Notes under the pieces: model-generated
Databases searched by the model: none
Seen by the model: only the letters and a program-made list of their open reading frames with translations
What the model was told of the DNA's origin: nothing
NCBI GenBank assembly: GCA_033032865.1
Contig: JAWHQI010000009.1
Location: forward strand, 10,062,001-10,126,000
Direction: 5' to 3'
DNA length: 64,000 nt
Source: Dactylorhiza incarnata
Lineage: Eukaryota; Streptophyta; Magnoliopsida; Asparagales; Orchidaceae
Shown here: piece by piece, positions 5,272-64,000 of the stretch
Layout of the letters: every line of letters begins with the position of its first letter
Position numbering within the stretch: the stretch's first letter is position 1
Position numbers and translations under genes: made by a program

Positions 5272-5308
5272 CACTCCCAGACTTACCCTTTTGCTCGTCC
5301 CGAGCAAA
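5272..5308 (-). promoter_or_regulatory. PPT and adjacent conserved hairpin of copy A
   Basis: Read on the minus strand, the purine-rich GGGTAAGTCTGGGAGTG abuts the 3' LTR start. Just inside it is a hairpin with perfect arms TTTGCTCG and CGAGCAAA separated by 3 nt (5290-5308). An equivalent hairpin sits beside the PPT in copy B, in the Athila element (52069) and in its derivative (61093). Confidence 0.65.
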
Positions 5309-7883
5309 TCACTCCTCGAGCGGAAAAGAAATTGAAAAGTTGGCTTAGAAACTGCAATGGTAAAGTACCATACGAAGTCGCAAGCTCACGCTCATAAAAA
5401 TTCAGTAGAAGTAATATCTAAATATGCATCGTAATTTATATTTTTCTAAGAGCATATCTATATATTATTAATACTCAAAATCTGAATCACAGTGAATCAT
5501 CCGGACAATCTTAGGAAGAAAGTTAACCGATCGCTAAGGTGAGCATTGCTAAATATCGGGGCTTGGGATAACCTCCAAAGAAATCCATCAATGTTGGTGA
5601 CCATAAGCTCACTTGTTCGCACTCTCTCCACGGCACTAGTTTGGTTCAACGCATGAATCAGTAGGACTTTTGTTTTGAAATGAAGCTTGGGCTAAGGTAG
5701 GGTATACAAAGATAAACATGAGGGCTTAAAGAACCTAAGCCATAATGAGCTAGCACAAAAAGTTAACCACGCACCACAAAACACATGAATGCACCACACC
5801 CCCAGACTTGGACATGAAACTATGGGGTGTTGTTGGGAATCTTGCCTACATGAATCCTGATTTGAAGAAGTCACCAAGTCAAGACTACTTCACTTTGTAT
5901 TTGATCGCTTCTCTGGCTCAAAATCTCAGGAAATTAAAGTACAATGTCATCGAAAAGAATAGGAGATGTCGTCGACAAAGTATGCTTATCATCATGATGA
6001 TGAGCAAAGAAAAACTGAAGGACAATGAAAGCTATCGTCGTGATGCACATATCGTTGTGACATCACAATGCCGACAGAATATCGGAGAAAAGAAATGAGC
6101 TGATGAAAAAGCAACATCGAAGATATCAAAGGAAGGAATGTCGTCGAGAAGATGCAGTATCGTCGACATCATCAAAGTAGCCTTATCATTGAAAAGTCAA
6201 TATCCAGAAGTATCGTCGATATCGGTGTAAAGGAGAGCTGATGCCAAAGAAGCTAGGGAAGCTACTATGAAGACATCATTTCCTGAAGAAGTAACTATTA
6301 GCGTAATGAACATGTCGTCGAGAGAATATAGTGATTAAGACGACAGTATGCAAGAAAGAAGATTGCGACGACATCGGTTAGATGACTTCGTGTCGTCATA
6401 AGCTCGAGTACAGAAGAGATGTCCCGTATCGTCGAAGATATAACTATCTGATGAAGAATTGAAGAAAAGACTAGTTCAAGGCATCGACAAAGTCCTATCG
6501 TCGAGATATTATCCATGTCGTCGTAAAAAATAGAAATATCGTCGAGACAAATTCAAAAGTATCCAGACATCATTGGTGACCGTTAAAGCGACTCATCTGT
6601 CCTATAAAAGGGAAGAGTGATGCCCTAGAAAAGGGAGAGAAATGTTCGAATTAGTATTCCCTCTGATACCACTTGTTAGTTATTGGGTGTCGACTTATCA
6701 CCTAGAGGGGGGGGGGGGGAGGAGTGAATAGGTATTTCACATTATTTTTGTTCCCAATAACTAACAGGTGTGTACACCACCAATTCCCAAATACATTTAT
6801 TTACACATTTATTTACTTTTTTTCTTTCACATTCCCTTTTTTTCTTTTCTCTTTTCAAAATTATAACATTGCACATATAATAACAAACACGACAATATTT
6901 TCAATAACGCATTGCGACCACAACCACAAATATACGTCGCATAAACACCCAACTTTTAAATCACAATTCGCTTGAGCTCAGAATTTTTTTTTGCGAATAG
7001 GATAGTCATTTTGGCTTTGGTGAATTGAAGGTGGAGCTGAATTAAACAATAGCGATTTGGCACAAAAGGGATAAGCAAAGGTAGAGCATGTAGGAATGGT
7101 GCAAATGCTCAACCGAGTCAAAGAATGGCATATATCACACTTGCACAAATGAACAAACCAATACCCATGCTTCGAGAGTCGCTAGGGGCAAGTTCTTAGC
7201 CAACGAGAAAGAGTATCCTTCCTCCCAACTCGAGTAATACATCACTAGTGATCATCTGCACACTCACCTACACTACCGTCAAATTCTACCGGATTCATGA
7301 TTTACGAGTAGAATAAATAGTATTCACGCAATTAAAAAATTCTAAAACTAAATGAATGAGAAAAAGCTAATCCTACATGAATTTCGACATGAGATGTGAA
7401 CACTCGACTAGGAGCACTGCAAGAGTCAACATGTTACTCCATCACTCAATACTATGCCAGAATCATTATCTTCCAATCACACGGAAAAATAATGTTTACC
7501 CGAGATGCATCGACAAATAAGTGCTCGCTCAAGTGGGTGCTATGTTGTGCGAAGAAAATGAACAATACTAAGTAAATGAAATAAATATACTTCTAGCATG
7601 CAAATGATATGTGCACGTGCAGTGGGTAACAAATAGCGGCTCTCCCCGGGACTTAATCTAAGCAATAGATGCAAAAGATGTAATCATTAAAATTAAATAA
7701 AAGACTTGGGAAAGAAAAGTTACCCATGCTCAGAAATGACATACCAGAAGATTGGTGTTAATAGTGCGAAGGAAAACCAAGTTCGCCACCAAACGATCAC
7801 CCCCTACAAAAAGCACGCACCAAGCAATAGCAAAAATAATATATTATGGCATTAGCGGATTAGATAAAGCAACCCAAGCTAAA
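5309..7883 (-). mobile_element. Non-coding 3' internal region of copy A, split by a solo LTR
   Basis: No supported ORF. Several blocks are conserved with copy B: around 5575-5640 (compare 19310-19375, including CTCTCCACGGCACTAG) and 7160-7240 (compare 19975-20040, including GGGGCAAGTTCTTAGCC). Conservation without coding capacity suggests cis-acting or RNA functions, or simply shared ancestry. The solo LTR at 5831-6766 interrupts it. Confidence 0.6.
5831..6766 (+). mobile_element. Copia solo LTR inside copy A
   Basis: Starts TGTTGGGAAT, ends CCCAATAACTAACA, 936 bp, with TSD GGTGT (5826-5830 and 6767-6771). Copy B still has the empty site (around 19550: GGGTGTGTACAC), which confirms the boundaries. 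A TATA box (CCTATAAAAGGG, about 6602) gives plus orientation. The body (about 5945-6550) is full of TCGTCGA motifs. The last 93 bp are bounded by 14-bp inverted repeats (TGTTAGTTATTGGG / CCCAATAACTAACA), and the G-run block inside lies in the opposite orientation from that expected of such an LTR. Confidence 0.85.
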
Positions 7884-19005: not shown

Positions 19006-19042
19006 CACCCCCACACTTACCTGTTTGCGCGTCCCGAGCAAA
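19006..19042 (-). promoter_or_regulatory. PPT and hairpin of copy B
   Basis: Minus strand: GGTAAGTGTGGGGGTG abuts the 3' LTR. Inside it is TTTGCTCGGGACGCGCAAA, the same hairpin as in copy A (5290-5308) with one changed position. Confidence 0.6.
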
Positions 19043-20665
19043 CAAATCCGGCGGTGTAGGGAAAATGGTTGTTAGCGTAGAGAATTGCAAAGAAAGAGTC
19101 AGATGCGAAGTATCATACCCATGCAAATAGAAATTCTGTAAAAGAAGATTCTAACTATACTAATTAATTTACAAAAGTATACATGCGTAAATAGAGATTT
19201 ATTTGTACTCAGATGGTGAATCATGAAGAATTTGTGCGGTCGTGCCCGATGTGAAAGTAAACAAGCCACTCAGGAGGGTGTTGCTAAAGACCGGAATTCG
19301 AGAATAACTCCGCTGAAATCCATCAACGACGAGAACCATAAGCTTGCCCGGTTACACTCTCTCCACGGCACTAGCAAACTCACAAGTTAAATCAATAGGA
19401 CTTCGGGTTATAATTGGGCTTATGTTACTGTATGATATTCAATGATAAACGAAACGGCTACGCAACCCAAATGAGCAACATCGAAATGCTTACCCTGAAC
19501 AAGCCCAAAACAGCGCTTGTGTACCACACCCCCAGACTTAGCTTGAAAAACGGGTGTGTACACAGCCTACTCCAAACAAATACCAACTAAATTTTTCTAT
19601 TACGCCCAAGGGGATTTCTTGTCATTTTTATTCTTTACAGATTTTTTCTTTTAACTTCATTTTTTTTCATTTATCCCCCGGTTGGTTTACAACAATATGT
19701 TCAGCACACAATACACTTTTTCTTCACATCATAAAAATTTCCATACATCACATCCAAATATGAAATGTAATTTCAGTTAGCTCACTATTTGGCTGCGATA
19801 ATAGGATAAGCTTCAGGCTTTGGTGATTTAATAGAAGAGCTGAAACAAATGAAGGGTAGGCACAAACTTGGCTTGCAAAGGTAAAAGCATAGGTAATGGA
19901 AAACAAGGCTCAAACTAGCCAAAAATGGCCTACATCACATTTAACAAAATGAGTTGCTCTCGCCCATGCTTCAAGAGTCGCTTGGGGCAAGTTCTTAGCC
20001 CACGAGAAAGGTAAACCTTCCTTCCGACTCGAGCAACACACAACTAGCGCTTGCTTACACACAACAACGTGCTACCGCAAATTTCGGTTACATTCACCAA
20101 ATGAGTAAAATAAATAAAAAACCACGCAAGAACACTAATTGTAAATTAAAAGTATAGAGACAATCTAATTCTACTCAAATTTTTATGCAAGCAAGGAATA
20201 TGCGACTAGAGCACTACAAGAGTCAACATCGCACTCCGATTTGCAATTCCTAAGCTAACATCCTATTTCACATTCCAAACCAAGATAAGCGTGAACGGAA
20301 GCACACAAACAAGTGAGTGCGCGCTAAAGTGGGTGCAGTGGTGTGCGGAGAAAGTAAATAAATCATAAAACTGGAAATAAAATACTTCTAGCATGCTAAG
20401 CACTAGTGCACGTGCAGTGAACACTCGGTACACTCCCCCCAGACTTGAATTGGACAATCACATGAATTATGACAATGAGACTAAAGAAATGTTGCGGAAG
20501 AGGGTACCTATGCTCAGATATGAGCATACCAGAAGATTGGCGTTAATACTGCGAAGGGAATCCAAGTCCGCCACCAAAAGAAATTGCCGCACACCTGCAG
20601 GCAAAAAAAAAGGCTCCAAGCAAAAATATATAAAACTAAACTATTAACGGGTTAGCAACAATAAC
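19043..20665 (-). mobile_element. Non-coding 3' internal region of copy B
   Basis: No supported ORF. Conserved blocks with copy A lie at about 19310-19375, 19530-19570 (the intact target of the solo LTR in copy A) and 19975-20040. Confidence 0.6.
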
Positions 20666-27581: not shown

Positions 27582-29736
27582 TGTTAGTTTATATGTTTGT
27601 AGTCTAAATCACCTAGAGGGGGGGGGGGGGGGGTGAATAGGTCCCTTTGATTTTTCCTCTAAGTACCCTAGCTGATTTCTGAGTTAGTTTAAGCAAATCA
27701 ACAAACACAGAAAGCACACAAGAATTTATAGTGGTTCCCCAAAGACAGTGTGTCTTTGGGTAGTCCACTTTCCCCCTTCACCCTTCTAACAGTGTGTTAG
27801 ATAGGGCCAACTCCTCCAACTCAGCTCCAAGAGCTTACAACACAGATCCCTCAGGATCTCTCAGGTTTTTCCAAACCCTACCTCAGGCTAAACAGCCCTA
27901 CCTCAGATCATCCACTGATCCTCCAACTCAGACCACAGTAGGTCCTACAACTCAGGCTAAACAACCCTACCTCAGGCTAAACAGCCCTACCTCAGATCAG
28001 CTCCTGATCCTACAGCTCAGACCCCTTCCAGGTCCTACAGCTTAGAGGAATCCTCCTCCTACAGCTCAGGACTTCAGCCCTACAACTCAGGATGTTAAGC
28101 CCTACAAGTCAGAACCCTCAGGTTCCTACAACTCATAGGAATCCTCCTCCTACAGCTCAGGCCTTCAGCCCTACAAACTCAGAACCCAAAGGTTCCTATA
28201 ATCTCAGACTAAATTGTCCTACAAACTCAGGCAAGATGCCCTACGAAAGTTTTGAATCTTACTACAGATGACAGGAAGTCCCCTGTAGTTCCTGCACACC
28301 TGGTGCTTCCTTGCTGCTGGAGATGTTGATGGCAGCTACAACTTGATCTTCCTCTTCAAATGAAGGTTGGAAGATCTCCTTGCTCCTTCTTGTAAAGGAG
28401 CAAACTTTCTCTCTCAGAATCTTCTTTCTTGTTCAGTGAGCAATAGGAGAGTGAGGAGAACACTGGCCGTCAATGGAACAGTCTCCTATTTGTTTTGCAC
28501 GTGGCCGACACTTCCAAAGTTGCCCTAACTTCTTCTTTTATACATCTTTGATCCTCAATGGCTCTTAGCTGACCTTCTGACAAGCATGGGAGAGACTGGT
28601 GGACCCCACACAGCTTTTCTGCAACTTGCGCCACGGGCAAAGATGCAATCTGCGTTCGACGAACACGCTGTACTGTGTTCGATGAACTTGCCAAACTCTG
28701 TGTTCGACGATCTTGCCAAACTCTGCGTTCGATGAACTTGCCAAACTCTACGTTCGACAAACTTGCCAAACTCTGTGTTCGACGAACTTGCCAAACTCTG
28801 CGTTCGACGAACTTGCCAAACTCTGCATTCAACGATCGACACTCTGCGTTCGATGAACTTGCCAAACTATGCGTTCGACGATCTGCCTTGTCTTTGCATT
28901 CGACGATCTGTCTTGTCTCTACGTTCGACGATCTGCCTTGTCTCTGCGTTCAACGAACTTGCCAAACTCTGCGGTCGACGAACTCGCTCAAGTCTCAGCT
29001 GATTCTTTCTTTCTGTCTGCGTTCGATGAACTACCTTCTGAGTTTGACGAACATGCCAACTATCAGCTGTTTCTTCTATCTCGTCTCAGCGGTCGATGAA
29101 CTGTGTTCTGCATTCGACGAACGACTCTTTGCATTCGACGAACACGCCCCTTGTGCCTTCTCAGTGTCTCCTTCTCTTGTCTCGTCTCAGCGGTCGATGA
29201 ACTGAGTTTTGCGTTCGACGAACGGCTCTCTGCGTTCGACAAACACGCCCTTTGTGCGTTCTCAGCGGCTCCTTCTCTGGTCTCGTCTCAGTGGCCGACG
29301 AACTGAGTTCTGCGTTCGACGAACGGCTCTCTGCATTCGACGAACACGCCATTCTTTCCAATCTGCATGCTGCTCCTTTCCCTTCTCAGTGGATCCGCTG
29401 AGACAGCGATCTCGTCTCAGCGGATTCTTGGCTATCTGCAGCTTAGCTTGCTTATAAGCTTTCTCAGCGGCTCCTGTTCTAGTTTCAGTGGTTCCGCTGA
29501 GACAGTGGGCTCGTCTCAGCGGTTTTGACCCTTCGTCTCAGCGGTTCTACTGAGACAAAACTTCATCTCCTAGGAGATGATTTCTCCTCATCTAAGGGCA
29601 TGTTTGGCCCTTCCTTTTGAGTCACCTGTGCCTGTATATCCTACACAAGTATAGCTTTATCAACTACAATATGTCATTAGCATTGAGAGTGATGCCTCTT
29701 CAAATCAAGGTAATATTGAGGGCAATATTCCCAACA
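27582..29736 (-). mobile_element. Copia solo LTR, 2,155 bp, with three repeat arrays
   Basis: Plus-strand ends TGTTAGTTTA and ATTCCCAACA; TSD ATGAC (27577-27581, 29737-29741). Minus orientation follows from the TTCAC-polyC-TCTAGG block near 27620 and from the start TGTTGGGAATATTGCC, which matches the LTR at 5831. It contains CCTACA/CTCAGG repeats (27830-28240), a 25-bp tandem array ending in GTTCGACGAAC (28680-28830) with scattered further copies to 29350, and CAGCGG/CCGCTG inverted repeats (29385-29560). Open frames across the array on both strands are by-products of the repeat. Confidence 0.87.
28680..28830 (-). repeat. 25-bp tandem repeat with GTTCGACGAAC core
   Basis: The unit GAACTTGCCAAACTCTG then YGTTCGAC repeats about six times head to tail. 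The junction reads GTTCG-A-CGAAC, a near-perfect palindrome. Further spaced copies continue to about 29345. Confidence 0.85.
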
Positions 29737-50366: not shown

Positions 50367-52068
50367 TGATGATCTTTTCCAAACTATATCCGACGAAGGC
50401 AAGTGTACCTTATCCTCTATAATATAGGATATTTTAGAAATACCAAGGTTGTATTCCTCGGGGTGCGTTGATTAGTTCTACTTCGAGGAGGTCACTATTA
50501 TCTAATCTAATGATTTTTAAGGCTTTGTTTTACTTAACTAAAAGAGACAATTGCAAACTAAGAAGATTTAAATGATGATAAGAAGGATTAGTGCTCAATC
50601 TAAAATCACCTTGGAGTGAGAATAATCAAGAGAAGGAAAAATAATTCTAATTTCGTTTAAATAAACTACTTGACCGTGGAGGTTCCTGAAGCTTGAACAT
50701 GCCTCTCTTGAGGGAAATTCCCAACTAAGTTTAGGAAAAATCAACCGAATTCTTGTTCTATAATCGATTACCTAAAACTTTATTTACACTTTGAACCCCA
50801 CAATTTTATTTGACTCCAATCCGGGAGATTTACGTCATCCTCTCTCGAGGGGTGCGTGCAACTCTCTTTACCCTTGAGTGATCAATTCATACTTTGAGCC
50901 TCTCGGCTAACTAAGTAAGAAAACCTAAGCGAAAACCATATATCGAAAATATGGTCTCACTAATTAAAAATCAAGTGTAAATCAAGTATTTACAAAAAAA
51001 GGAAAAAGAGAGCTAGAAAATCATAACATGATTATCTCATCCTCGGATCATTTCGATCGAGCACTAATGAGAAATAGTTATTCACAGTTAAGGGGAAAAA
51101 GAGAGAAAGATAAAATTGCATGAAGGAAAAAATTGACTAAAGTAGAAAAAGAGAATGAAAGAGAGCAAAACAAAATTTTATTGAAATAAAAAACTATTAC
51201 AAGCTTTAAGAAGGATTACAATGCTAGAAATGAAAATATTACAAGCTTAAACTAGGCTATTGCAAGAAAGATAATTATTACATTGCTTGACATGAAGAGA
51301 GAGAGAACATCAAATGAGAAACATGAAAGAAGCATGAAAATGGACATTAACAACTCTAGCAGCACCTCCACCTCTCCAAATTTCTGAACCCTAGACTCAA
51401 GGAGATCCCCTGAATTTATATAAAAAATTTTCAAGTTACACACCCTCGGTCACGGGCGTAACCAAGGGCGTGTAATCACTGTTCATCTCAGCTGGGACAA
51501 CGACGTGGGTCTTGCGTGATGGCGCGACTGAAAAGGACATGTCACGGCCGTGACATTTGGGTCACGGGCGTGTACTTGGATGGCTTCATTTAATGCAGCG
51601 TGGGCTTGATTGTCGTGCGGCGACGAGCAAGGATCACACGGGAATGCCACGACTGTGACATTTGGGTCACCAGCGTGACTTGAGTCAACTTTGCACGACA
51701 TCTCCACGTCTCGACGGTAGCTCTTCTGGGAAGATCTTTATGTCTACACGCCCTTGGTCACGGGCATGACCCTTGGGTCACGGGTATGACTGAGGGCATG
51801 ACTTGATGTGGACAAGCTCAAACTGCGCGACATCAACTCTGGACAGGTATTATGATTACATGCCCTTGGTCACGGGCGTGAACTAGGGCGTGTAATGTAA
51901 TTTTTTCCTAAATTGTCCCAAAATTCTGCAAAAATATAAATAAGCTAAATTAGAATCAAATTTCATAATAGAACTAGTTATAAGCTAAAATTGACATGAA
52001 AAAGAAAATTTCATATTAAATAATTACTAAAATTTATACTAAAAAGGGCATATAAAAACTACTTATCA
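50367..52068 (-). repeat. 3' LTR of the Athila-like element
   Basis: TGATGATC...CTTATCA, 1,702 bp. Homologous throughout to 59426-61092 (for example GATTTACGTCATCCTCTCTC). The segment 51440-51900 is packed with CACGGGCGTG, GGTCACGGG and CCCTTGGTCACGGG motifs and their complements. Confidence 0.85.
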
Positions 52069-52473: not shown

Positions 52474-52712
52474 GAGGTGATGGATTTTATCCTCTCACCT
52501 CACTATTTTTTTCTTTGTATATGTTTAGGAGTAATGAATTTTATCCTCTTACTCCATGCCATATAATCTTTTAAAATTCTCTTCTAATAAAAACCCAAAA
52601 TGTATATGTTTAGGAGTAATGAATTTTATCCTCTTACTCCATGCCACATAATCTTTTAAATGATTTTGGGTGCATATGTTTAGGGAATAATGAATTTTAT
52701 CCTCTTATTCCC
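52474..52712 (-). other. Array of four stem-loops with an invariant 14-nt loop
   Basis: Plus-strand loop TGAATTTTATCCTC (TGGATTTTATCCTC in the first) is enclosed by different perfect stems: GAGGTGA/TCACCTC (52474-52501), GGAGTAA/TTACTCC (52528-52555 and 52613-52640) and GGGAATAA/TTATTCCC (52683-52712). Outer arms ATATG/CATAT or CATATG/CATATG flank the last three. Stems change in both strands together while the loop stays fixed. Three more copies are in 61486-61656. Confidence 0.8.
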
Positions 52713-53230: not shown

Positions 53231-53326
53231 GTTAACTCTTGGACTTCCCGAGGGATACCCCATGAAGGGTTCTCAACGGTACTAGGAGTTGTGATGGGAT
53301 GATAGACGAAATGTCCCTTTCTAAGA
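53231..53326 (+). repeat. Shared 95-nt module inside the Athila-like element
   Basis: CTTGGACTTCCCGAGGG, CTCAACGGTACTAGGAG, TGTGATGGGATGATAG and CCCTTTCTAAG appear in the same order as in the Tekay-like LTR (26331-26425). The module is antisense to this element but sense in the Tekay-like LTR. Confidence 0.7.
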
Positions 53327-53449
53327 TTTAAATTTTCGATTATCTATTTTTTTTTTTTGAATTTTTGGGTTTTGAAAGTGCTTGAATAAAAGAAGAAATA
53401 AGAAAATAAATTTTTTTGAAATTTATTTCTAATTTAAAAACTACATTTT

Positions 53450-53501
53450 TTAAGAACTATTTACACCCCCATACTTAAAGTTAAACATTGTCCTCAATGT
53501 T
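53450..53501 (-). promoter_or_regulatory. AACATTG-AGGA-CAATGTT hairpin and internal G-tract
   Basis: Minus strand: seven-bp arms AACATTG and CAATGTT around AGGA, then TAACTTTAAGTATGGGGG. Copy C has GCATTG/CAATGC at the same place. The derivative at 62142-62176 has AATATTG/CAATGTT, which pairs if one G-U wobble is allowed. Confidence 0.6.
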
Positions 53502-53680
53502 TACACCTAACTATGAAGAAAACAAGAGAAAGAAAAAGAAAACAAAGTGCGAGACAAAGCAAAAAGGAATGCAAGATAAAAGAAGAAGGAAGAAGGGCTT
53601 CCCTGATTTTGAAGTTGCGGGGAAGCGGCGGTTACCTACAAAACATGTTAGAAGAAAAGGAAAAACAACAAAAAGATAAC

Positions 53681-53749: not shown

Positions 53750-54960
53750 GCGGAAGAATTATTGATTTACTCTTTTCGTTAGACAAATCTCCTGGAAGAT
53801 TTAACTTAAGACAATGACCATTTACTTTGAAGAACATTTTTCCGGGTGAGAAATTAGAACTGTCCCATCAGACCAAACCTCTTTAACGATAAAGGGTCCG
53901 GACCATCAAGATTTTAGCTTTCCCTGAAAAGGCGAAGACGAGAATTATAAAGAAGGACGAGATCGCCCGACGAAAAGTTTTTGGAAATTTAATATGTTTA
54001 TCGTGGTAAAACTTTGTTCGCTCCTTATATAATTTGTTGCTCTCGTACGCATTCGTTCACCACTAATCTAATTCGTTCATTTGAAATTTCCTTTATTCGG
54101 CCGCTAACGTAGAATTGAGATTTAAAAATTTAAGTGCCCAAAATGCGCGGTGCTCTAATTTGACCAGAAGGTGGCAAGCCTTGCCATAAACCAATCGATA
54201 CGGTGTACAACTGATAGCGGTCTTGTACACCGTTCGATAGGACCATAACGCATCATCGAGCTTAAGCGACCAATCCTTCCGATTAATAGAAACAAATTTT
54301 TTTCTAATATCCTCATTAATTCTCGATTTATGACTTCGACTTGGCCCCTCATTTGTGGGTGTTAAGCAGTGGATAGTTTATGCGTGACACCATATTTTGC
54401 TAATATTTTCGTGAATTGGCTATTACAAAAATGGGTGCCCCGATCACTGACTATAGCGCGCGGCATGCCAAATCGAGAGAATAAAATTTTTTTAAGAAAT
54501 TTACGATGACTCTCGCATCGTTGGTGGGGAAAGCTTGAGTTTTGGCCCACCTCAACACATAGTCGACCGCAACGAGAATATACTTGTTTGAATAAGAGGG
54601 GGGGGAGTGGGGGTGGGAGAGGACCAACGAAATCGATACCCCAAAGGTCAAAAATTTCGCATTCTAAGAAAATATTTTGGGGCATCTCATCCCGGCGGGA
54701 GATGTTCCCCGACCGCTGGCAGCTGTCGCAAGTACTCACAAGGGTGTGAGCATCTTTGAAGAGTGTGGCCAATAAAAGCCTGCCTCCAACGCCTTCCTCG
54801 TAGTTCGGTTCGCTTGATAATGACCACCCGTTGGTCCTTCGTGACAATGCCATAAAATTTTTAGGCCTTCCTCAGTCGAGACGCATCTTATCACTACTTG
54901 GTCCGCGCAGACACGGAATAGAAAGGGGGCCTCCCAAAAGTAATTCTTTAAATAAGAAAA
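53750..54960 (-). pseudogene. Athila-like integrase
   Basis: H2C2 region [17 protein letters not shown] (about 54840-54890) and CDSCQRSGN (about 54730). The core has catalytic Asp in WGIDFVGP (about 54635), Asp in VSDRGTHF (about 54440) and Glu in GQVEVINRE (about 54335), so the DDE residues are all visible. Frameshifts and stops occur near 54600 and 54360 and become frequent beyond 54150. The C-terminal part is barely readable, down to about 53750. Confidence 0.82.
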
Positions 54961-55035
54961 GAATTTCTTCCTTTGCTGACTAGAGAATTCTTTTGGCAGG
55001 ACCCGGGCTACTAGTTAGTTAGCCAAATCCGCAAA

Positions 55036-55737
55036 CTAGGGGGTGGAAGATATATTTATATTTTCGAGAGAAAGGATGAGCTCTTCAGGGAATTTATCAT
55101 TAATATCAGCTTCTATTAACGCTTCCGTAGCGGGATTTTCTAAACGGGAAAGACGGTCAACCGCCAAGTTTTCAGCTCCCCTTTTGTCCCGAATCTCTAA
55201 ATCAAACTCCCACAAGAGGAGGATCCATCGCAAAAGATGGGGCTTGGCGTCCGATTTACTTAAAAGATATCTAAGAGCAGAGTGATCTGTGAAAATGATT
55301 ACTTTGGAGAGAGTGATGTACGACCTAAACTTATCAAAAGTGAAAATGATTGCTAGAAGCTCCTTCTCGGTAGTGGTGTAATTTGCTTGTGCCGATGTGA
55401 GTGTTTTTCTCGCATAATAAATCGAGTGGAAATACTTACTCACTCGTTGGCCTAAAATGACACCTACCATAATATCACTCGCATCGCCCATAATTTCAAA
55501 GGGTAACCACCAATCCGGTGTGACTAGAATCAGAGAGTTTATAAGTTTTTCTTTGATAAGTTTAAAGGCCAAATGACATTCGTCATTAAAAAGGAAAGAA
55601 GATTCTTTTTCGAGAAGATGGGTTAACGTCTTCGTGATTTTTGAAAAGTTTTGAATGAAACGCCGATAAAACTCTGCGTGGCCTAGGAAGCTTCTAATTG
55701 CTTTTACATTCGTTGGAGGGGGGAGTTTTTTGATCAC
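55036..55737 (-). pseudogene. Athila-like RNase H region (233 codons open)
   Basis: Starts in the RT connection segment ([23 protein letters not shown]). RNase H residues are Asp in IMGDASD, Glu in [10 protein letters not shown], Asp in [11 protein letters not shown] and Asp in [11 protein letters not shown]. One of the best preserved parts of the element. It lies in another frame from RT, so the polyprotein is broken between them. Confidence 0.87.
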
Positions 55738-55881
55738 TTCAATCTTGGCCCTACGACCTCGATCCCTTTGCTCGATATTTTATGGCCAAGGAATAATCCT
55801 TCTTTGACCATAAATGACATTTATCCTAATTAAGAGTTAGATTTGTTTCCTCACAACGTTGTAGCACACGCTCGAGATTTT

Positions 55882-56658
55882 TTATACAATTTTAAAAGAG
55901 TTTTTGAAGACGGAGAAGTCGTCCATGAAAACTTCCATCACTTCCTCTACTAACTCATCGAATATCGCCAACATGCATCTTTGGAATGTAGCCGGCGCGT
56001 TACAAAGACCAAATGGCATCCTTCTATAAGCTAAGGTGCCAAAGGGACAAGTGAATGTTGTTTTCTCTAGGTAGTCGGGCGAAATAGGGATTTGAAAATA
56101 TCCTGACAAACCATCGAGAAAATAGTAGTAGGAGTGACCTGAATGGCATTCTAAGATTTGATCGATAAAAGGTAATGGGAAGTGATCCTTACGTGTGGCA
56201 TCATTTAGTTTTCGATAATCAATGCACATCCGCCAACCCATAACGGTACGGGTTAGGATAAATTCGTTGTTTTCATTTGCTACAATCGTTACGCCGCCTT
56301 TCTTTGGCACGACTTGTACCAGGCTAACCCAAGTACTATCCGATATCGGGTTGATGATTCCCGCAAGTTTGATAACTTTAGCCTTATTGACTTCTTTCAT
56401 ATTCGTGTTTAGCCATCGTTGAGGCTGGACCGTGTTGCGGGAATTATCTTCGAGGAAAATTTTGTGATTGCAGAAAGAAGGGTTAATACCCTTGATATCC
56501 GATATTTGCCATGCAATTGCGTGACGATGATTGCTTAAGATTAGAGTCAATTCAGAAATTTCTGAATCGCTCAGTTTGGATGACACAATAACGGGTAGCT
56601 TAGAATCTTTTTCTAAAAATAAATATTTAAGGTCAGGGGGGAATTGTTTTAACTCCAA
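55882..56658 (-). pseudogene. Athila-like reverse transcriptase (258 codons open)
   Basis: Motifs in order: LPVIVSSKLS, IAWQISDIKGINPSFCNHKI, WVSLVQVVPKKGGVTIV, GWRMCIDYRKLNDATRKDHF, FLDGLSGYFQIPI, CPFGTLAYRRMPFGLCNAPA and FMDDFSVF with the two catalytic Asp. It shifts frame at the end (after 55882); the thumb region before RNase H is not readable in one frame. Confidence 0.87.
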
Positions 56659-59425: not shown

Positions 59426-61092
59426 TGATAGAGAAAATCATGTTCTCCAATCTATACTCGATTAAGGCAAGTGTACCTATCGAAATATAGCATAGGATAT
59501 AAAGAATATCAAGTTCGTATTAGACTCGGGGCTGTCGAGTACTTTTACTTCGGGAAAACAAAACTATTATTTTATCGAATAATATTTTATTAGTGATAAT
59601 TTATAATTAAAATTAAAATAAAGAAATAAAGAAAAAAGAAACAAATCTTGATCAAAGCGCACTCGGAATGAAAATCAAGAGAGATAAATTCTACTTCTAA
59701 TCCAATCCTTGACCGTGGAGATTCCCGGATTATGGACGCGCCTTGGTCGAGGACGGCGCCCAACTAAGATTAGGTTGATCGACCGAACTCCCATTCTAAA
59801 ATCGAAACCCCAAAACTTGCTTTAACGAGGTGAATCCCACTATAGGATTTGACTCCTATTCAGAAGATTTACGTCATCCTCTCTCGAGGGTTGCATGCAA
59901 CTCATTTTATTCCTGAGCGATTGATTCGTACTCGCGACCTGGTTCAGCTAACTAGAATTTGAAAATAGATTTGAAGTCATACATAGACATATGAAATCAA
60001 GATAAATCAAGAATAAATCGAAGGAGGAAAAGAGATAAAAACGAATAAGAAATTATTTCATCCAAGACTTGCAAATTTCAAGATCTAAAAAGATTAATCA
60101 AAATGACATGAAACTAAAAAGAGGAAATGAATGAAAAAGACATTTTTTATTAAAAGGAAATTGAATTACATAAGGATTGAAAGCTTTGCATGAAATGAAA
60201 ACTAAGATTACATTGCATAAATTGAAATTACATAAAATTAAAATCTAAACTAATACAGGAATTGAAAAGAACAATTCTGCCCCAAAAGGGTGCAGAAGGG
60301 AAGAAATTTCGACCCAAGAAGGGTGGAAAAAGGGATGCCTTGAGATCTGGAAGAGCTGCCTTTTTATAGGCAAAAGTTGGGGTTACACACCCTTGGTCAC
60401 GCCCGTGACCAAGGGCTTGTAATGGGCGTGATCGAACCTGGAGCGGGAGAGGTGCATTCTGGAGTTACTGCAGGCATTAAAAGCGCGTCACACCCTTGGT
60501 CACGCCCGTGACCAAGGGCGTGTAATCTTAAAATAGATGCTGGCGCAGGAAATCTTTGGCGGGAAGGGCGTGACTCTGGCGGCAAAGGAGTTACACGCCA
60601 GTGTCATTGGAGCTACATGGGGGTGACATTGACGAAGCATCCTTGGGGCGTGATCTGCTGGCAGGGAGGTTACACGGGCGTGACATTGGCAGTCACGGGC
60701 GTGTACTTGGCGAAATCGTGTCATGGCTTCAGGACACGGCAGGCTGAGCTGGAGGCAGGGTTCACCGGCATGACAATGGAAAGTCACGGGCGTGACTTGG
60801 AAAGTCACGGACGTGTACTTGGAATTCTTCTCAGAATGTGCCCAGGTTGGCGGGAGCAGGTCTGGAAATAGTTTTATGTTAACACGCCCTTGGTCACGGG
60901 CGTGACTGAGGGCTTGTACTTGCATTTTTGGGCAAAAACTCCAGAAATCCTGAAAAACATAAAGCAAACTTAAGTTATTGAACAATTATAAATAGAAATG
61001 ATTATTTAGTTAAAATAGACATATTATTTATAAATTCAAATTATTATTAGCCTAAAAACTATGATAAAATTAGGCAAAAATACTACTCATCA
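59426..61092 (-). repeat. 3' LTR of the short Athila derivative
   Basis: TGATAGAG...CTCATCA, 1,667 bp. At 60383-60422 and 60489-60524 are long palindromes (TTACACRCCCTTGGTCACG and its complement around CC). Up to 60920 there are many GTCACGGGCGTG units. Confidence 0.87.
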
Positions 61093-61130
61093 AATATCCC
61101 ATACTTAAGCTTTTGCTATTCCAGAGCAAA
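61093..61130 (-). promoter_or_regulatory. PPT and hairpin of the short Athila derivative
   Basis: Minus strand: CTTAAGTATGGGATATT next to the LTR. Inside, arms CTTTTGCT and AGCAAAAG around 7 nt. Confidence 0.6.
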
Positions 61131-61485
61131 AGTATGATAGATTTTCATAAGACATTAATAATATTTCTAATTAAACTAAAATTTTCTTGAATCAAAAGAA
61201 AGCTTAAAATAAAATTTAGGGATTTAAGAGATAAGTCCTAAATTATGAAAATAAGATAAAAAGAGAGAAATGTTTAGCCAAGAATTCTCAAATTTTTTAA
61301 CTAGCAGACAAAATTAAGTAATTTGCGAATCAAAATTTGATTAGAATTATAAAAACTCCAATTTTGAAGAGGCTTATAGAAAAATTCAAACTACTACTTA
61401 TGCTCTCCCAATATTTTAATTTGAGTCTAAAATCAATTATATTGGCTAAAGGGGTTTGGGTAAACATGAAGCTAGGTTTGATTGG

Positions 61486-61656
61486 GGGTGATGAATTTTA
61501 TCCTCTCACCCAATTTTTTTTTTCTACTTGTACATGTTTAGGAAAATGATGAATTTTATCCTCTCATTTTCCATGACATATAATCTTTTCATAATAAACT
61601 TCATAAAAGGGAGGTGCATATGTTTAGGAAATAATGAATTTTATCCTCTTATTTCC
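61486..61656 (-). other. Array of three stem-loops with the invariant loop
   Basis: Loop TGAATTTTATCCTC in stems GGGTGA/TCACCC (61486-61511), GGAAAATGA/TCATTTTCC (61541-61572, nine perfect pairs) and GGAAATAA/TTATTTCC (61627-61656). Same type as 52474-52712. All three stems differ from each other. Confidence 0.8.
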
Positions 61657-62236
61657 ATGACAAATGATCTTTTGATAACTCTTTTTTTTTCTTGGGTAGG
61701 GCTAAAATAAATTTTAGATTAAATTGAAATATTTTGAGAGCAACTATAGTAAATTGAAATTTCCTAAGGATCTAAAAGGATGAGGTAAAAATAATTAAAA
61801 TCTAAAGTTGTTAAGCACAAGTACTACAAAATTGAGACTAATTAAAATAAAAGAGAAAAAGTGCTAAATAAATTACTCTAATCAAATTACGATCATAATA
61901 AATTCCTTAAAACTAAATCAACTAAAAATTAAATTTTTACTAACCATGATAAAATAGAAGATTAGCCAATTAAAATTAGTTAAAAATGCTAATAAATAAA
62001 CTCTCAAATGTTTGATTTTAGAAATAACAAAAACCTATGTAAGGGGTTACTTGATTATCATTAATTTTTTAAGTTTTGAAATTTTTAAATATTTTTTTTG
62101 TAATTTTTTTAAAATTTTTTTAAATATTAGGAAATATACCCCCATACTTAAAATTCAACATTGTCCCCAATATTGAAAACTAAGTAGGAAAAAAAAGAAA
62201 AAAAAGGGAAAATAAATTTTTTTTTGATATGTTTTA

Positions 62237-62330
62237 ATTAGTCTTGGACTTCCCAAGGTCAACCCGGTAAATGGCTCGCAAGGTACTAGAGGATGTGATG
62301 GGAATTTAAGCCCAAAGCGTCCTTTCCAAG
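62237..62330 (+). repeat. Shared 95-nt module in the short Athila derivative
   Basis: GTCTTGGACTTCCCAAGG, GGCTCGCAAGGTACTAG, TGTGATGGGA and CGTCCTTTCCAAG. Fourth copy in the window. Confidence 0.65.
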
Positions 62331-62457
62331 AATTTAATTATAGCATACTTTTTTTTCATTTTTACATTTTTTTTTATTTTTTTTTTAAAAAAATAAAAAG
62401 AAAAGGAAAGATAAAATTAATAGCGTTTCCCCTTTTCGAAATATCCACAAAAAATTC

Positions 62458-62479
62458 CCCAACAACGACGCCAAAAACT
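62458..62479 (-). promoter_or_regulatory. tRNA-Asp PBS of the short Athila derivative
   Basis: Minus strand: AGTTTTTGGCGTCGTTGTTG then GGGAA, next to the LTR at 62480. Same primer as in copies A, B and C. Confidence 0.75.
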
Positions 62480-64000
62480 TGATAGAGAAAATCGTGTTCT
62501 CCAATCTATACTCGATTAAGACAAGTGTACCTATCGAAATATAGCACAGGATATAAAGAATATCAAGGTCGTATTAGACTCGGGGCTGTCGAGTACTTTT
62601 ATTTCGGGAAAACAAAACTATTATTTTATCGAATAATATTTTATTAGTGATAATTTATAATTAAAATTAAAATAAAGAAATAAAGAAAAAAGAAACAAAT
62701 CTTGATCAAAGCGCACTCGGAATGAAAATCAAGAGAGATAAATTCTACTTCTAATCCAATCCTTGACCGTGGAGATTCCCAAATTATGGACGTGCCTTGG
62801 TCGAGGACTGCGCCCAACTAAGATTAGGTTGATCGACCGAACTCTCGTTCTATAATCTAAACCCCTAAACTTGCTTTAACGAGGTGAATCCCACTATAGG
62901 ACTTGACCCCTATTCAGAAGATTTACGTCATCCTCTCCCGAGGGTTGGGTGCAACTCTTTTTATTCCTGAGCGATCGATTCGTACTCACGAGTTGGTTCG
63001 GCTAACTAGAATACGAAAACAGATTTGAAGTCATACTTAGACATGAAATCAAGATAAATCAAGAATAAATCGAAGGAGGAAAATAGATAAAAACGAATAA
63101 GAAATTATTTCATCCAAGACTTGCAAATTTCAAGATCTAAAAAAATAATCAAAATGACATGAAAATAAAAAGGGAAATTATTGGAAAAGACATTTTTATT
63201 AAAAGGAAATTGAATTACATAAGGATTGAAAGCTTTGCATGGAATGAAAACTAAGACTACATTGTATAAATTGAAATTACATAAAATTAAAATCAAAACT
63301 AATACAGGAATTGAAAAGAACAATTCTGCCCCAAAAGGGGGCAGAATGGAAGAAATTTTGACCCAAGAAGGGTGGAAAAAGGGATGTCTTGAGATCTGGA
63401 AGAGCTGCCTTTTTATAGGCAAAAGTTGGGGTTACACGCCCTTGGTCACGCCCGTGACCAAGGGCATGTAATGGGCGTGATCGAAGCTGGAGCGGGAGAG
63501 GTGCATTCTGGAGTTACTGCAGGCGTTACAAGTGCGTCACGCCCTTGGTCACGCCTGTGACCAAGGGCGTGTAATCTTAAAACAGACGCTGGCACGGGAA
63601 ATCTTTGGCGTGAAGGGCGTGACTCTGGCGACAAAGGAGTTACACGCCCGTGTCATTGGAGCTACACGGGTGTGACATTGGCGAAGCATCCTTGGGGCGT
63701 GATCTGCTGGCAAGGAGGTTACACAGGCGTGACATTGGAAGTCATGGGCGTGCACTTGGTGAAATCACGTCATGGCTTCAGGACACGGCCGACTGAACTG
63801 GAGGCCAGTTTCACGGGCATGACAATGGAAAGTCACGGGCATGACTTGGAAAGTCACGGGCATGTACTTGGAATTCTTCTCAGAATGAGTCCAGGTTGGT
63901 GGCAGCAGGTCTGGAAATAGTTTTATGTTGACACGCCCTTGGTCACGGGTGTGACTGAGGGCGTGTACTTGCATTTTTGGGCAAAAACTCCAGAAATCCT
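62480..64000 (-). repeat. 5' LTR of the short Athila derivative, incomplete in the window
   Basis: TGATAGAG start; runs parallel to 59426-60950. The palindrome at 63432-63471 has 19-bp arms with one mismatch. A second at 63539-63573 is similar. Confidence 0.87.

Follow-up and report, generated by a model that had tools for sequence, protein, structure and literature searches.

Two hairpin arrays in the window

We analysed a 64,000-nt stretch of Dactylorhiza incarnata DNA (contig JAWHQI010000009.1, positions 10,062,001 to 10,126,000; hereafter the window) from a genome of 3.27 Gb. The window carries two arrays of short hairpins. They belong to two Ty3/gypsy long terminal repeat (LTR) retrotransposons and lie in the noncoding 3′ part, ~400 nt upstream of the 3′ LTR. 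One array (52474–52712) lies between pol and the 3′ LTR of element E5, the other (61486–61656) in the geneless element E4. The standard loop, 14 nt long and reading GAGGATAAAATTCA in element sense, is identical in six of the seven hairpins and carries one change in the seventh. All stems are perfect, with lengths of 7, 7, 7, 8, 6, 9 and 8 bp in coordinate order. An earlier note on this DNA, made from the letters alone, had listed these hairpins; their coordinates and letters proved correct, and the observation was confirmed. The features are as follows.

52474..52501, minus strand: E5 hairpin a, 3′-most in element sense; stem of 7 bp; loop GAGGATAAAATCCA
52528..52555, minus strand: E5 hairpin b; stem of 7 bp, GGAGTAA/TTACTCC; standard loop; outer arms
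52613..52640, minus strand: E5 hairpin c; stem as in hairpin b (recent duplicate); standard loop
52683..52712, minus strand: E5 hairpin d; stem of 8 bp, GGGAATAA/TTATTCCC; standard loop
61486..61511, minus strand: E4 hairpin a; stem of 6 bp; standard loop
61541..61572, minus strand: E4 hairpin b; stem of 9 bp; compared with E5 b, two pairs changed on both sides and 2 nt inserted symmetrically in each arm
61627..61656, minus strand: E4 hairpin c; stem of 8 bp; compared with E5 d, one inner-stem pair changed on both sides
50380..52068, minus strand: E5 3′ LTR, with approximate bounds set by eye; TGATAAG start at 52068, far end placed by similarity to the E4 LTR
54362..56658, minus strand: E5 broken pol, lying upstream of the array when read in element sense; its open reading frames (ORFs) match RVT_1, RT_RNaseH and rve (integrase core)
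59426..61092, minus strand: E4 3′ LTR, TGATGAG...TATCA; ends set by eye
61093..62479, minus strand: internal region of E4, 1387 nt long; lacks stop-to-stop ORFs of 90 codons
62480..64000, minus strand: E4 5′ LTR, running past the window end; 94% identity to the E4 3′ LTR

A sequence resembling a primer-binding site (PBS), TGGCGTCGTTGTTGGGG, which may be complementary to tRNA-Asp, adjoins the E4 5′ LTR, and a stretch resembling a polypurine tract (PPT) adjoins 61093. Matches to the PBS-like pattern are also present at the genomic loci L179, L181, L182 and L183. The E5 ORFs contain RVT_1, RT_RNaseH and rve in the Ty3/gypsy order on the minus strand, and locus L178 supports this order. The Athila label proposed in the earlier note fits the gene order and the primer-like site, and is best taken as provisional. 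The excerpted text of a 2019 survey counts tRNA-Asp among the primers of non-chromoviruses and gives an additional RNase H (aRH) as a mark of Tat elements (PMC6317226). No second RNase H was found among the three E5 ORFs scanned (at least 150 codons; pol is broken). A search for RNase H relatives scored 7990 candidates and returned 7483; in the best 120 of the 7483, which carry no clade labels, the named organisms are all plants. A coding role of the arrays was rejected, with 2 to 10 stops per frame over both arrays and a longest open run of 65 codons.

Paired changes in the stems and conservation of the loop

A search of the window for the loop with up to two mismatches gave eight matches against 1.31 expected. 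Seven are the hairpins; the eighth (46523, minus strand, two mismatches) is absent from the window hairpin list. Hairpin pairs no more than 400 nt apart with loops at least 85% alike number 12 in the window, nine of them among these hairpins, and none occurred in 20 Markov-simulated windows. A covariance model recovered the seven hairpins and no further copy in the window, the next match having an E-value of 1.3. As a null for the stems we used exact occurrences of the 14-mer in viral contigs, which are chance matches: among the 120 listed, the number of flanking pairs was 0 (83 matches), 1 (22), 2 (13), 3 (1) or 5 (1). The searches found no relative among the viral contigs or prokaryote genomes covered. 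Locus L121 proved to be a phage-like contig with an end repeat, and four bacterial matches were rejected, since the inner stem is kept in none of the three that were aligned and their rough E-values, down to 0.0017, stem from flank words in the query.

The stems change on both sides. In an alignment of the seven hairpins, 97.6% of 82 cells are standard pairs, a value reached by none of 500 shuffles, and two-sided changes affect 14 cells in 6 of 15 pairs; no shuffle in 500 matched either this cell count or the covariation score. Within the inner helix, two-sided changes occur at five of nine pairs and one-sided changes at none, with one cell unpaired. The seven stems are not independent, since recent duplication links the hairpins at 52528 and 52613, and the E5 and E4 arrays are homologous. 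We therefore also compared E5 with E4 by position, using a manual alignment that excludes E5 hairpin c as a duplicate and leaves out the symmetric 2-nt insertion in the E4 b arms. Among 22 inner pairs, four carry two-sided changes that still match and one a one-sided change. Under random placement of the nine changed sites, P is 3.7e-4 for this co-location and 2.3e-5 when complementarity is included, the latter under an assumed transition bias. With the outer pairs added (34 pairs; four two-sided and three one-sided changes), the corresponding values are 9.7e-4 and 6e-5. Neutral simulation from a perfect ancestor on an assumed tree reached the observed combination of pairing and variation in 0 of 20,000 runs at each of five rates. 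The outer ATATG/CATAT arms described in the earlier note are real in five of the seven hairpins; they are mostly conserved in sequence, and one outer pair covaries clearly.

No part of the unit is better conserved than the loop, in line with the fixed loop that the earlier note had set against differing stems. Between E5 and E4, it differs at 1 of 42 sites. The unit flanks differ at 3 of 61 sites (in two of the three hairpin pairs, those with flanks) and the inner stems at 9 of 44. Neighbouring noncoding DNA is 75% identical on one side of the array and 71% on the other, and still further upstream identity falls to 58% over 116 aligned sites with many gaps. Because the loop (1/42) and flanks (3/61) differ so little, the stems more (9/44), and the neighbouring DNA is only 71–75% identical, loop and flanks appear to be held by sequence and the stem by pairing.

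The array across the genome

Searching the same genome for two loops at array spacing gave 4014 + 4118 = 8,132 matches, and a reversed control gave none. From this genome alone we sampled 90 loci (L126–L215), which together with the window make 91 stretches, accepting loops with at most one mismatch and merging identical 94-nt windows. The sample holds 166 units from 74 of the 91 stretches, 125 of them with at least five of the six inner positions paired. The remaining 41, sorted by hand count, comprise 13 units of a family with a bulged stem (two with a further change), five of an altered-loop family, 15 copies of an unrelated repeat, which came in through the loop pattern with other closing pairs, and eight decayed or chance cases. 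As a separate observation, a unit in one family (L126, L134, L154, L155 and L160) reads ..GAGGATAAATTCCATTTCCTC and similar, and its loop GAGGA may pair with TCCTC instead.

The inner cells of the 125 paired units comprise 717 Watson–Crick pairs, 14 G·U, 8 A·C and 11 others (750 in total), and 13 different perfect 6-bp stems occur in the sample. Across 36 distinct arm pairs, 192 of 216 cells are Watson–Crick, compared with a mean of 128.7 (standard deviation 6.1) and a maximum of 151 in 5000 shuffles of the 3′ arms; the shuffle keeps the column make-up and not the relatedness of the arms, and choosing the 125 units by pairing, a rule that also drops the 13 bulged units, somewhat favours the observed value. 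The earlier note had expected covariation in a larger set if the stems are selected for pairing, and within this genome the larger set shows it.

Loops with closing pairs other than A–T number 78 in the genome and three in the control. A hand tally gives C–G 34, G–C 13, T–A 7, C–A 7, C–C 5, G–A 5, T–G 4, T–C 3 and G–G 0. Thirty of the 78 were fetched for inspection. All seven fetched from the G–C class are hairpins of 6–9 bp, and the other 23 have at most two pairs outward from the loop, with L192, L193 and L194 looking like damaged hairpins. The C–G class was rejected as covariation, all 14 fetched being one coding-like repeat without a stem.

The array occurs with pol genes, with one long ORF and with no genes. 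L178 matches E5 at 86% identity in reverse transcriptase (RT), 86% in RNase H and 71% in integrase, and its rve domain is recognized by Pfam; its long frames abut at stops, so that activity is only putative. L180 and L181 have LTR pairs 97% and 96% identical, internal regions of ~2550 and 3068 nt, and longest ORFs of 331 and 367 codons, respectively, which matched no Pfam family above the cut-off and none of the E5 RT, RNase H or integrase sequences. L177 has two similar arrays and no pol match. L176 lacks an ORF of 90 codons, its two LTRs are 97% identical, and it matches the E4 internal region throughout at 92% identity. Because E4 and L176 share it, the geneless form is more than one deleted copy. 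The statement in the earlier note that a derivative without genes keeps the array thus extends from E4 to L176, and to L177, L180 and L181 as carriers without a pol match.

In BLASTN comparisons (E-value 1e-10), the aligned blocks of E4 and L180 are the array and the PPT end alone. L176 and L180 share the array, both ends of the internal region (PBS and PPT) and one further block, and L181 aligns to E4 more widely than L180 does. Across 39 arrays, in which overlapping loci may count twice, the number of hairpins is two (18 arrays), three (14) or four (7). An LTR-start motif was recognized in 22 of the 39, and there the last loop lies 399–516 nt upstream of it. In the head-to-tail direction, short LTR elements are also repeated, with units of ~3.1 kb in L177 and ~4.3 kb at L183 (contig C42), resembling a satellite derived from an element.

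The same loop on matching stems recurs with unrelated flanks in L199, L188, L189, L198, L206 and L207. L199 has four hairpins with four different stems, three of the loops carrying one change, and its 3′ region partly aligns to E4 and E5. L188, L198 and L207 have single hairpins with a GGATAG/CTATCC core, and L189 and L206 have other stems. L192 resembles damaged kin. Upstream of the hairpin, L188, L192, L198 and L207 align at 68–70% to window element E1 (6986–7277). No RT or integrase match was found within 4 kb upstream of L188.

Several further features were observed in these elements and in the window. A second hairpin with a fixed centre lies just upstream of the PPT, reading TTTGCTCGGGACGAGCAAA in E1, TTTACTCGGGACGAGTAAA in L188 and GCTTGGGACAAGC in L206, with two-sided changes; its window copies are at 5290–5308 and 19022–19044, with one mismatch in E2, and the L188 and L206 copies are near the 3′ ends of the fetched stretches. 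CACGCCC..GGGCGTG palindromes occur as direct and inverted copies in the E4 LTRs (60390–60415, 60493–60518, 63438–63465 and 63538–63571) and also in the E5 LTR (51436–51475 and 51855–51895). Two conserved noncoding blocks are present in swapped order in E5 (53237–53366 and 53411–53546) and E4 (62242–62371 and 62093–62216), the second of them holding a GGACAATGTT..AAGTATGGGGG motif. At 28623–29122, 25-bp tandem units cross a 176-codon open frame (28675–29205).

Interpretation and comparison with known systems

Sliding folds of the E5 array gave z-scores of −6.2, −3.7 and −2.1 in element sense and −2.4, −3.2 and −1.6 on the opposite strand. For the E4 array the values are −2.7 and −2.4 versus −1.3 and −1.3, and elsewhere in E4 the opposite strand once reached −2.6. 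The full arrays fold with z-scores of −6.7 and −3.0, and single units with −1.6 to −5.3. The E4 a stem forms with a probability of 0.93–0.97 in element sense versus 0.46–0.48 on the other strand. Folded in element sense, the loop can form an inner helix that surrounds unpaired A residues, and the variant loop GAGGATAAAATCCA of E5 a replaces a G·U pair by G–C, so that the inner GGAU/AUCC is fully Watson–Crick. The element-sense folding, the strand difference of E4 a and the G·U to G–C variant of the inner loop helix moderately favour RNA. Long-range or kissing pairing of the loop was rejected, as shuffled loops were as good in 28 and 30 of 60 cases (E4 and the E5 3′ part); for loop duplexes with E5 pol, 6 of 60 shuffled loops were as good.

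We infer that the array works in cis as a multivalent RNA element within the noncoding 3′ part of the genomic transcript of Athila-like Ty3/gypsy elements, most likely serving genomic-RNA selection (packaging or export), and give this reading a probability of about 0.5. Each unit would be a stem of variable sequence presenting the fixed loop GAGGAUAAAAUUCA, which could itself form a short inner helix capped by an A-rich tip. A trans-acting protein would read the loop, with one to four units per element and avidity from several copies. The reader may be the Gag protein of the element, acting in packaging, or, nearly as likely, a host export factor, and gene-poor derivatives would thereby be mobilized in trans. 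Because geneless elements keep the array, it must benefit, in cis, the very RNA that carries it. Packaging and export are favoured because they are the steps that geneless elements need most, and the two are inseparable here. By analogy, the design, with several copies of a constant loop on freely varying stems, resembles that of a protein-binding RNA hairpin. More tentatively, and with the odds somewhat against it, several deeply diverged LTR-retrotransposon families of this genome, parasitic ones as well as those with pol, might display one common RNA recognition code, a 14-nt loop on stems that evolve freely; a shared reader, either Gag or a host protein, would choose which transcripts are mobilized; gene-poor elements would then survive by displaying one to four loops.

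Several observations weigh against this interpretation. Every data point comes from one genome. The number of window pairs with two-sided changes was reached by 15 of 500 shuffles, and the count of further pair types in the seven-row alignment by all 500. In the sample, 13 of 166 units have a bulged stem, and the outer arms covary weakly (25 distinct pairs, 103 of 150 cells versus 96.3, standard deviation 3.7). One E5 array window folds almost equally well on the other strand (−3.7 versus −3.2), and six of the seven stems pair with a probability near 1 on either strand. G·U is not clearly commoner than A·C, at 14 versus 8 in the sample; genome-wide, at one pair that is A–T in 2496 copies, the counts are 37 versus 29, the 29 including five places on one contig that are possibly local duplicates. 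The loop search of the window gave no match in E1 and E2, which are related to the single-hairpin elements, and inspection by eye showed no matching hairpin there. Retroviral packaging signals, moreover, are mostly at the 5′ end. Where the earlier note had argued for selection on pairing in RNA or DNA, the two-sided changes in the window and the genome sample bear out the pairing, and the preference for RNA over DNA is weaker, given nearly equal G·U and A·C.

An origin by mutation is unlikely to be the whole explanation. Template switching during DNA replication or reverse transcription would keep perfecting quasi-palindromes, with no selection for pairing needed; according to the excerpted text of Monttinen and Löytynoja (2022, PMC8794818), a single switch can both generate and preserve perfect stems and compensatory changes of several bases. 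A copying mechanism fits the symmetric insertion of 2 nt in E4 b, as it fits the nearly pure Watson–Crick inner stems (717 of 750 cells) and the lack of a clear G·U excess. Left unexplained are a near-constant loop (1/42) and flanks (3/61) amid neighbours of 71–75% identity, and the recurrence of the loop with unrelated flanks and at a fixed place. Template switching may well supply changes that selection then keeps.

A signal at the DNA level, as cruciforms or as hairpins in single-stranded cDNA, seems rather improbable. Such structures could be read by integrase or a host factor, for example, or could pause plus-strand synthesis. DNA pairing would need the almost invariably Watson–Crick inner stems that we observe, the near-equality of G·U and A·C and the formation of six stems on either strand point the same way, and the purine-rich 5′ arm and loop resemble a PPT. 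Against it, element-sense folding is stronger in most array windows (−6.2 versus −2.4, for instance, and 0.93–0.97 versus 0.46–0.48 for the E4 a stem), and stems of 6–9 bp with a 14-nt loop make poor cruciforms.

We consider it improbable, to a slightly greater degree, that the array is an RNA element with another use, such as RNA stability, translation, 3′-end choice, or small-RNA production or evasion. Its 3′ noncoding position fits any of these, yet better translation would be useless to the geneless elements that keep it, and hairpins of 26–32 nt are far below the length of plant microRNA precursors. The small RNA siRNA854 of Athila6, which has a once-proposed stem-loop precursor in the excerpted text of PMC3276544, shares a few letters with the array, perhaps by chance. 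Passive carry-over of functionless repeats spread by tandem duplication and recombination accounts for the plain duplicate at 52528 and 52613 and is otherwise hardly credible, since duplication would keep stems identical, and these differ yet match far above shuffles.

If the array acts in genomic-RNA selection, a short, high-copy loop on covarying stems at a fixed place, in elements with pol as in gene-poor ones, offers a concrete candidate signal for the choice of plant LTR-retrotransposon RNA for export or packaging and for the mobilization of geneless elements in trans. It also gives a handle for finding its reader protein. The thousands of copies also form a natural data set for separating selection for pairing from template-switch mutation.

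The earlier note knew of no described counterpart, and none emerged from Rfam (0 matches at the gathering score, 64-kb window against 4227 families) or from titles and abstracts of the open-licence PubMed Central (PMC) literature. The iron-responsive element, a protein-binding hairpin with a constant loop on a variable, covarying stem, is alike in logic alone; its loop and host context differ. The loop self-duplex reaches just −3.3 kcal/mol, and the loop is thus not the self-complementary apical loop (kissing palindrome) of retroviral-type dimerization. The constitutive transport elements (CTEs), a class defined by export of intron-containing RNA via NXF1 with no need of a viral protein, namely the CTE of Mason–Pfizer monkey virus (MPMV) and simian retrovirus 1 (SRV-1), the γ-CTE of murine leukaemia virus (MLV) and the direct repeats of Rous sarcoma virus (RSV), are alike as cis-acting structured RNAs with conserved loops, and the MPMV CTE is located near the 3′ end. 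It is one long stem-loop with two internal loops, whereas the arrays have one to four separate hairpins with apical loops. The excerpted text of PMC7551171 describes direct recruitment of NXF1, an export receptor, by the MPMV CTE, and likewise by the MLV γ-CTE through a conserved stem-loop sequence; the γ-CTE loop, AAGACA, is unrelated to GAGGATAAAATTCA, and no loop of that type is found here.

The cis-acting RNA of Ty1 and Ty3 (packaging, primer binding and cyclization) is alike in having essential sequences near both ends and mini-elements mobilized in trans. For Ty3, localization and packaging depended on untranslated regions or POL (PMC4974528, excerpted text); the same excerpts call Ty3 RNA structure uncharacterized and, for Ty1 and Ty3, describe no fixed-loop hairpin array. 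The repeats in the excerpted PMC11963269 occupy the same element region and also form repeated units, and differ in being family-specific in sequence; its main text nowhere uses the terms hairpin, stem-loop or secondary structure. The terms transposon, transposable, retro and repeat have 0 occurrences in PMC12218528. For siRNA854, or the proposed microRNA854, of Arabidopsis Athila6, the excerpts of PMC3276544 describe a short Athila regulatory RNA with GAGGATA and a once-proposed stem-loop precursor, which is alike; unlike the array, it is a 21–22-nt siRNA (small interfering RNA) acting on a gene, and these excerpts describe no covarying hairpin array. Its sequence includes GATGAGGATA, which is present in the altered units of L134, L154 and L155, as well as the GAGGATA of the standard loop; this by-eye match covers a few purine-rich letters and may be chance. 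On the excerpted text, this small RNA (PMC3276544) appears to be the nearest lead in the literature.
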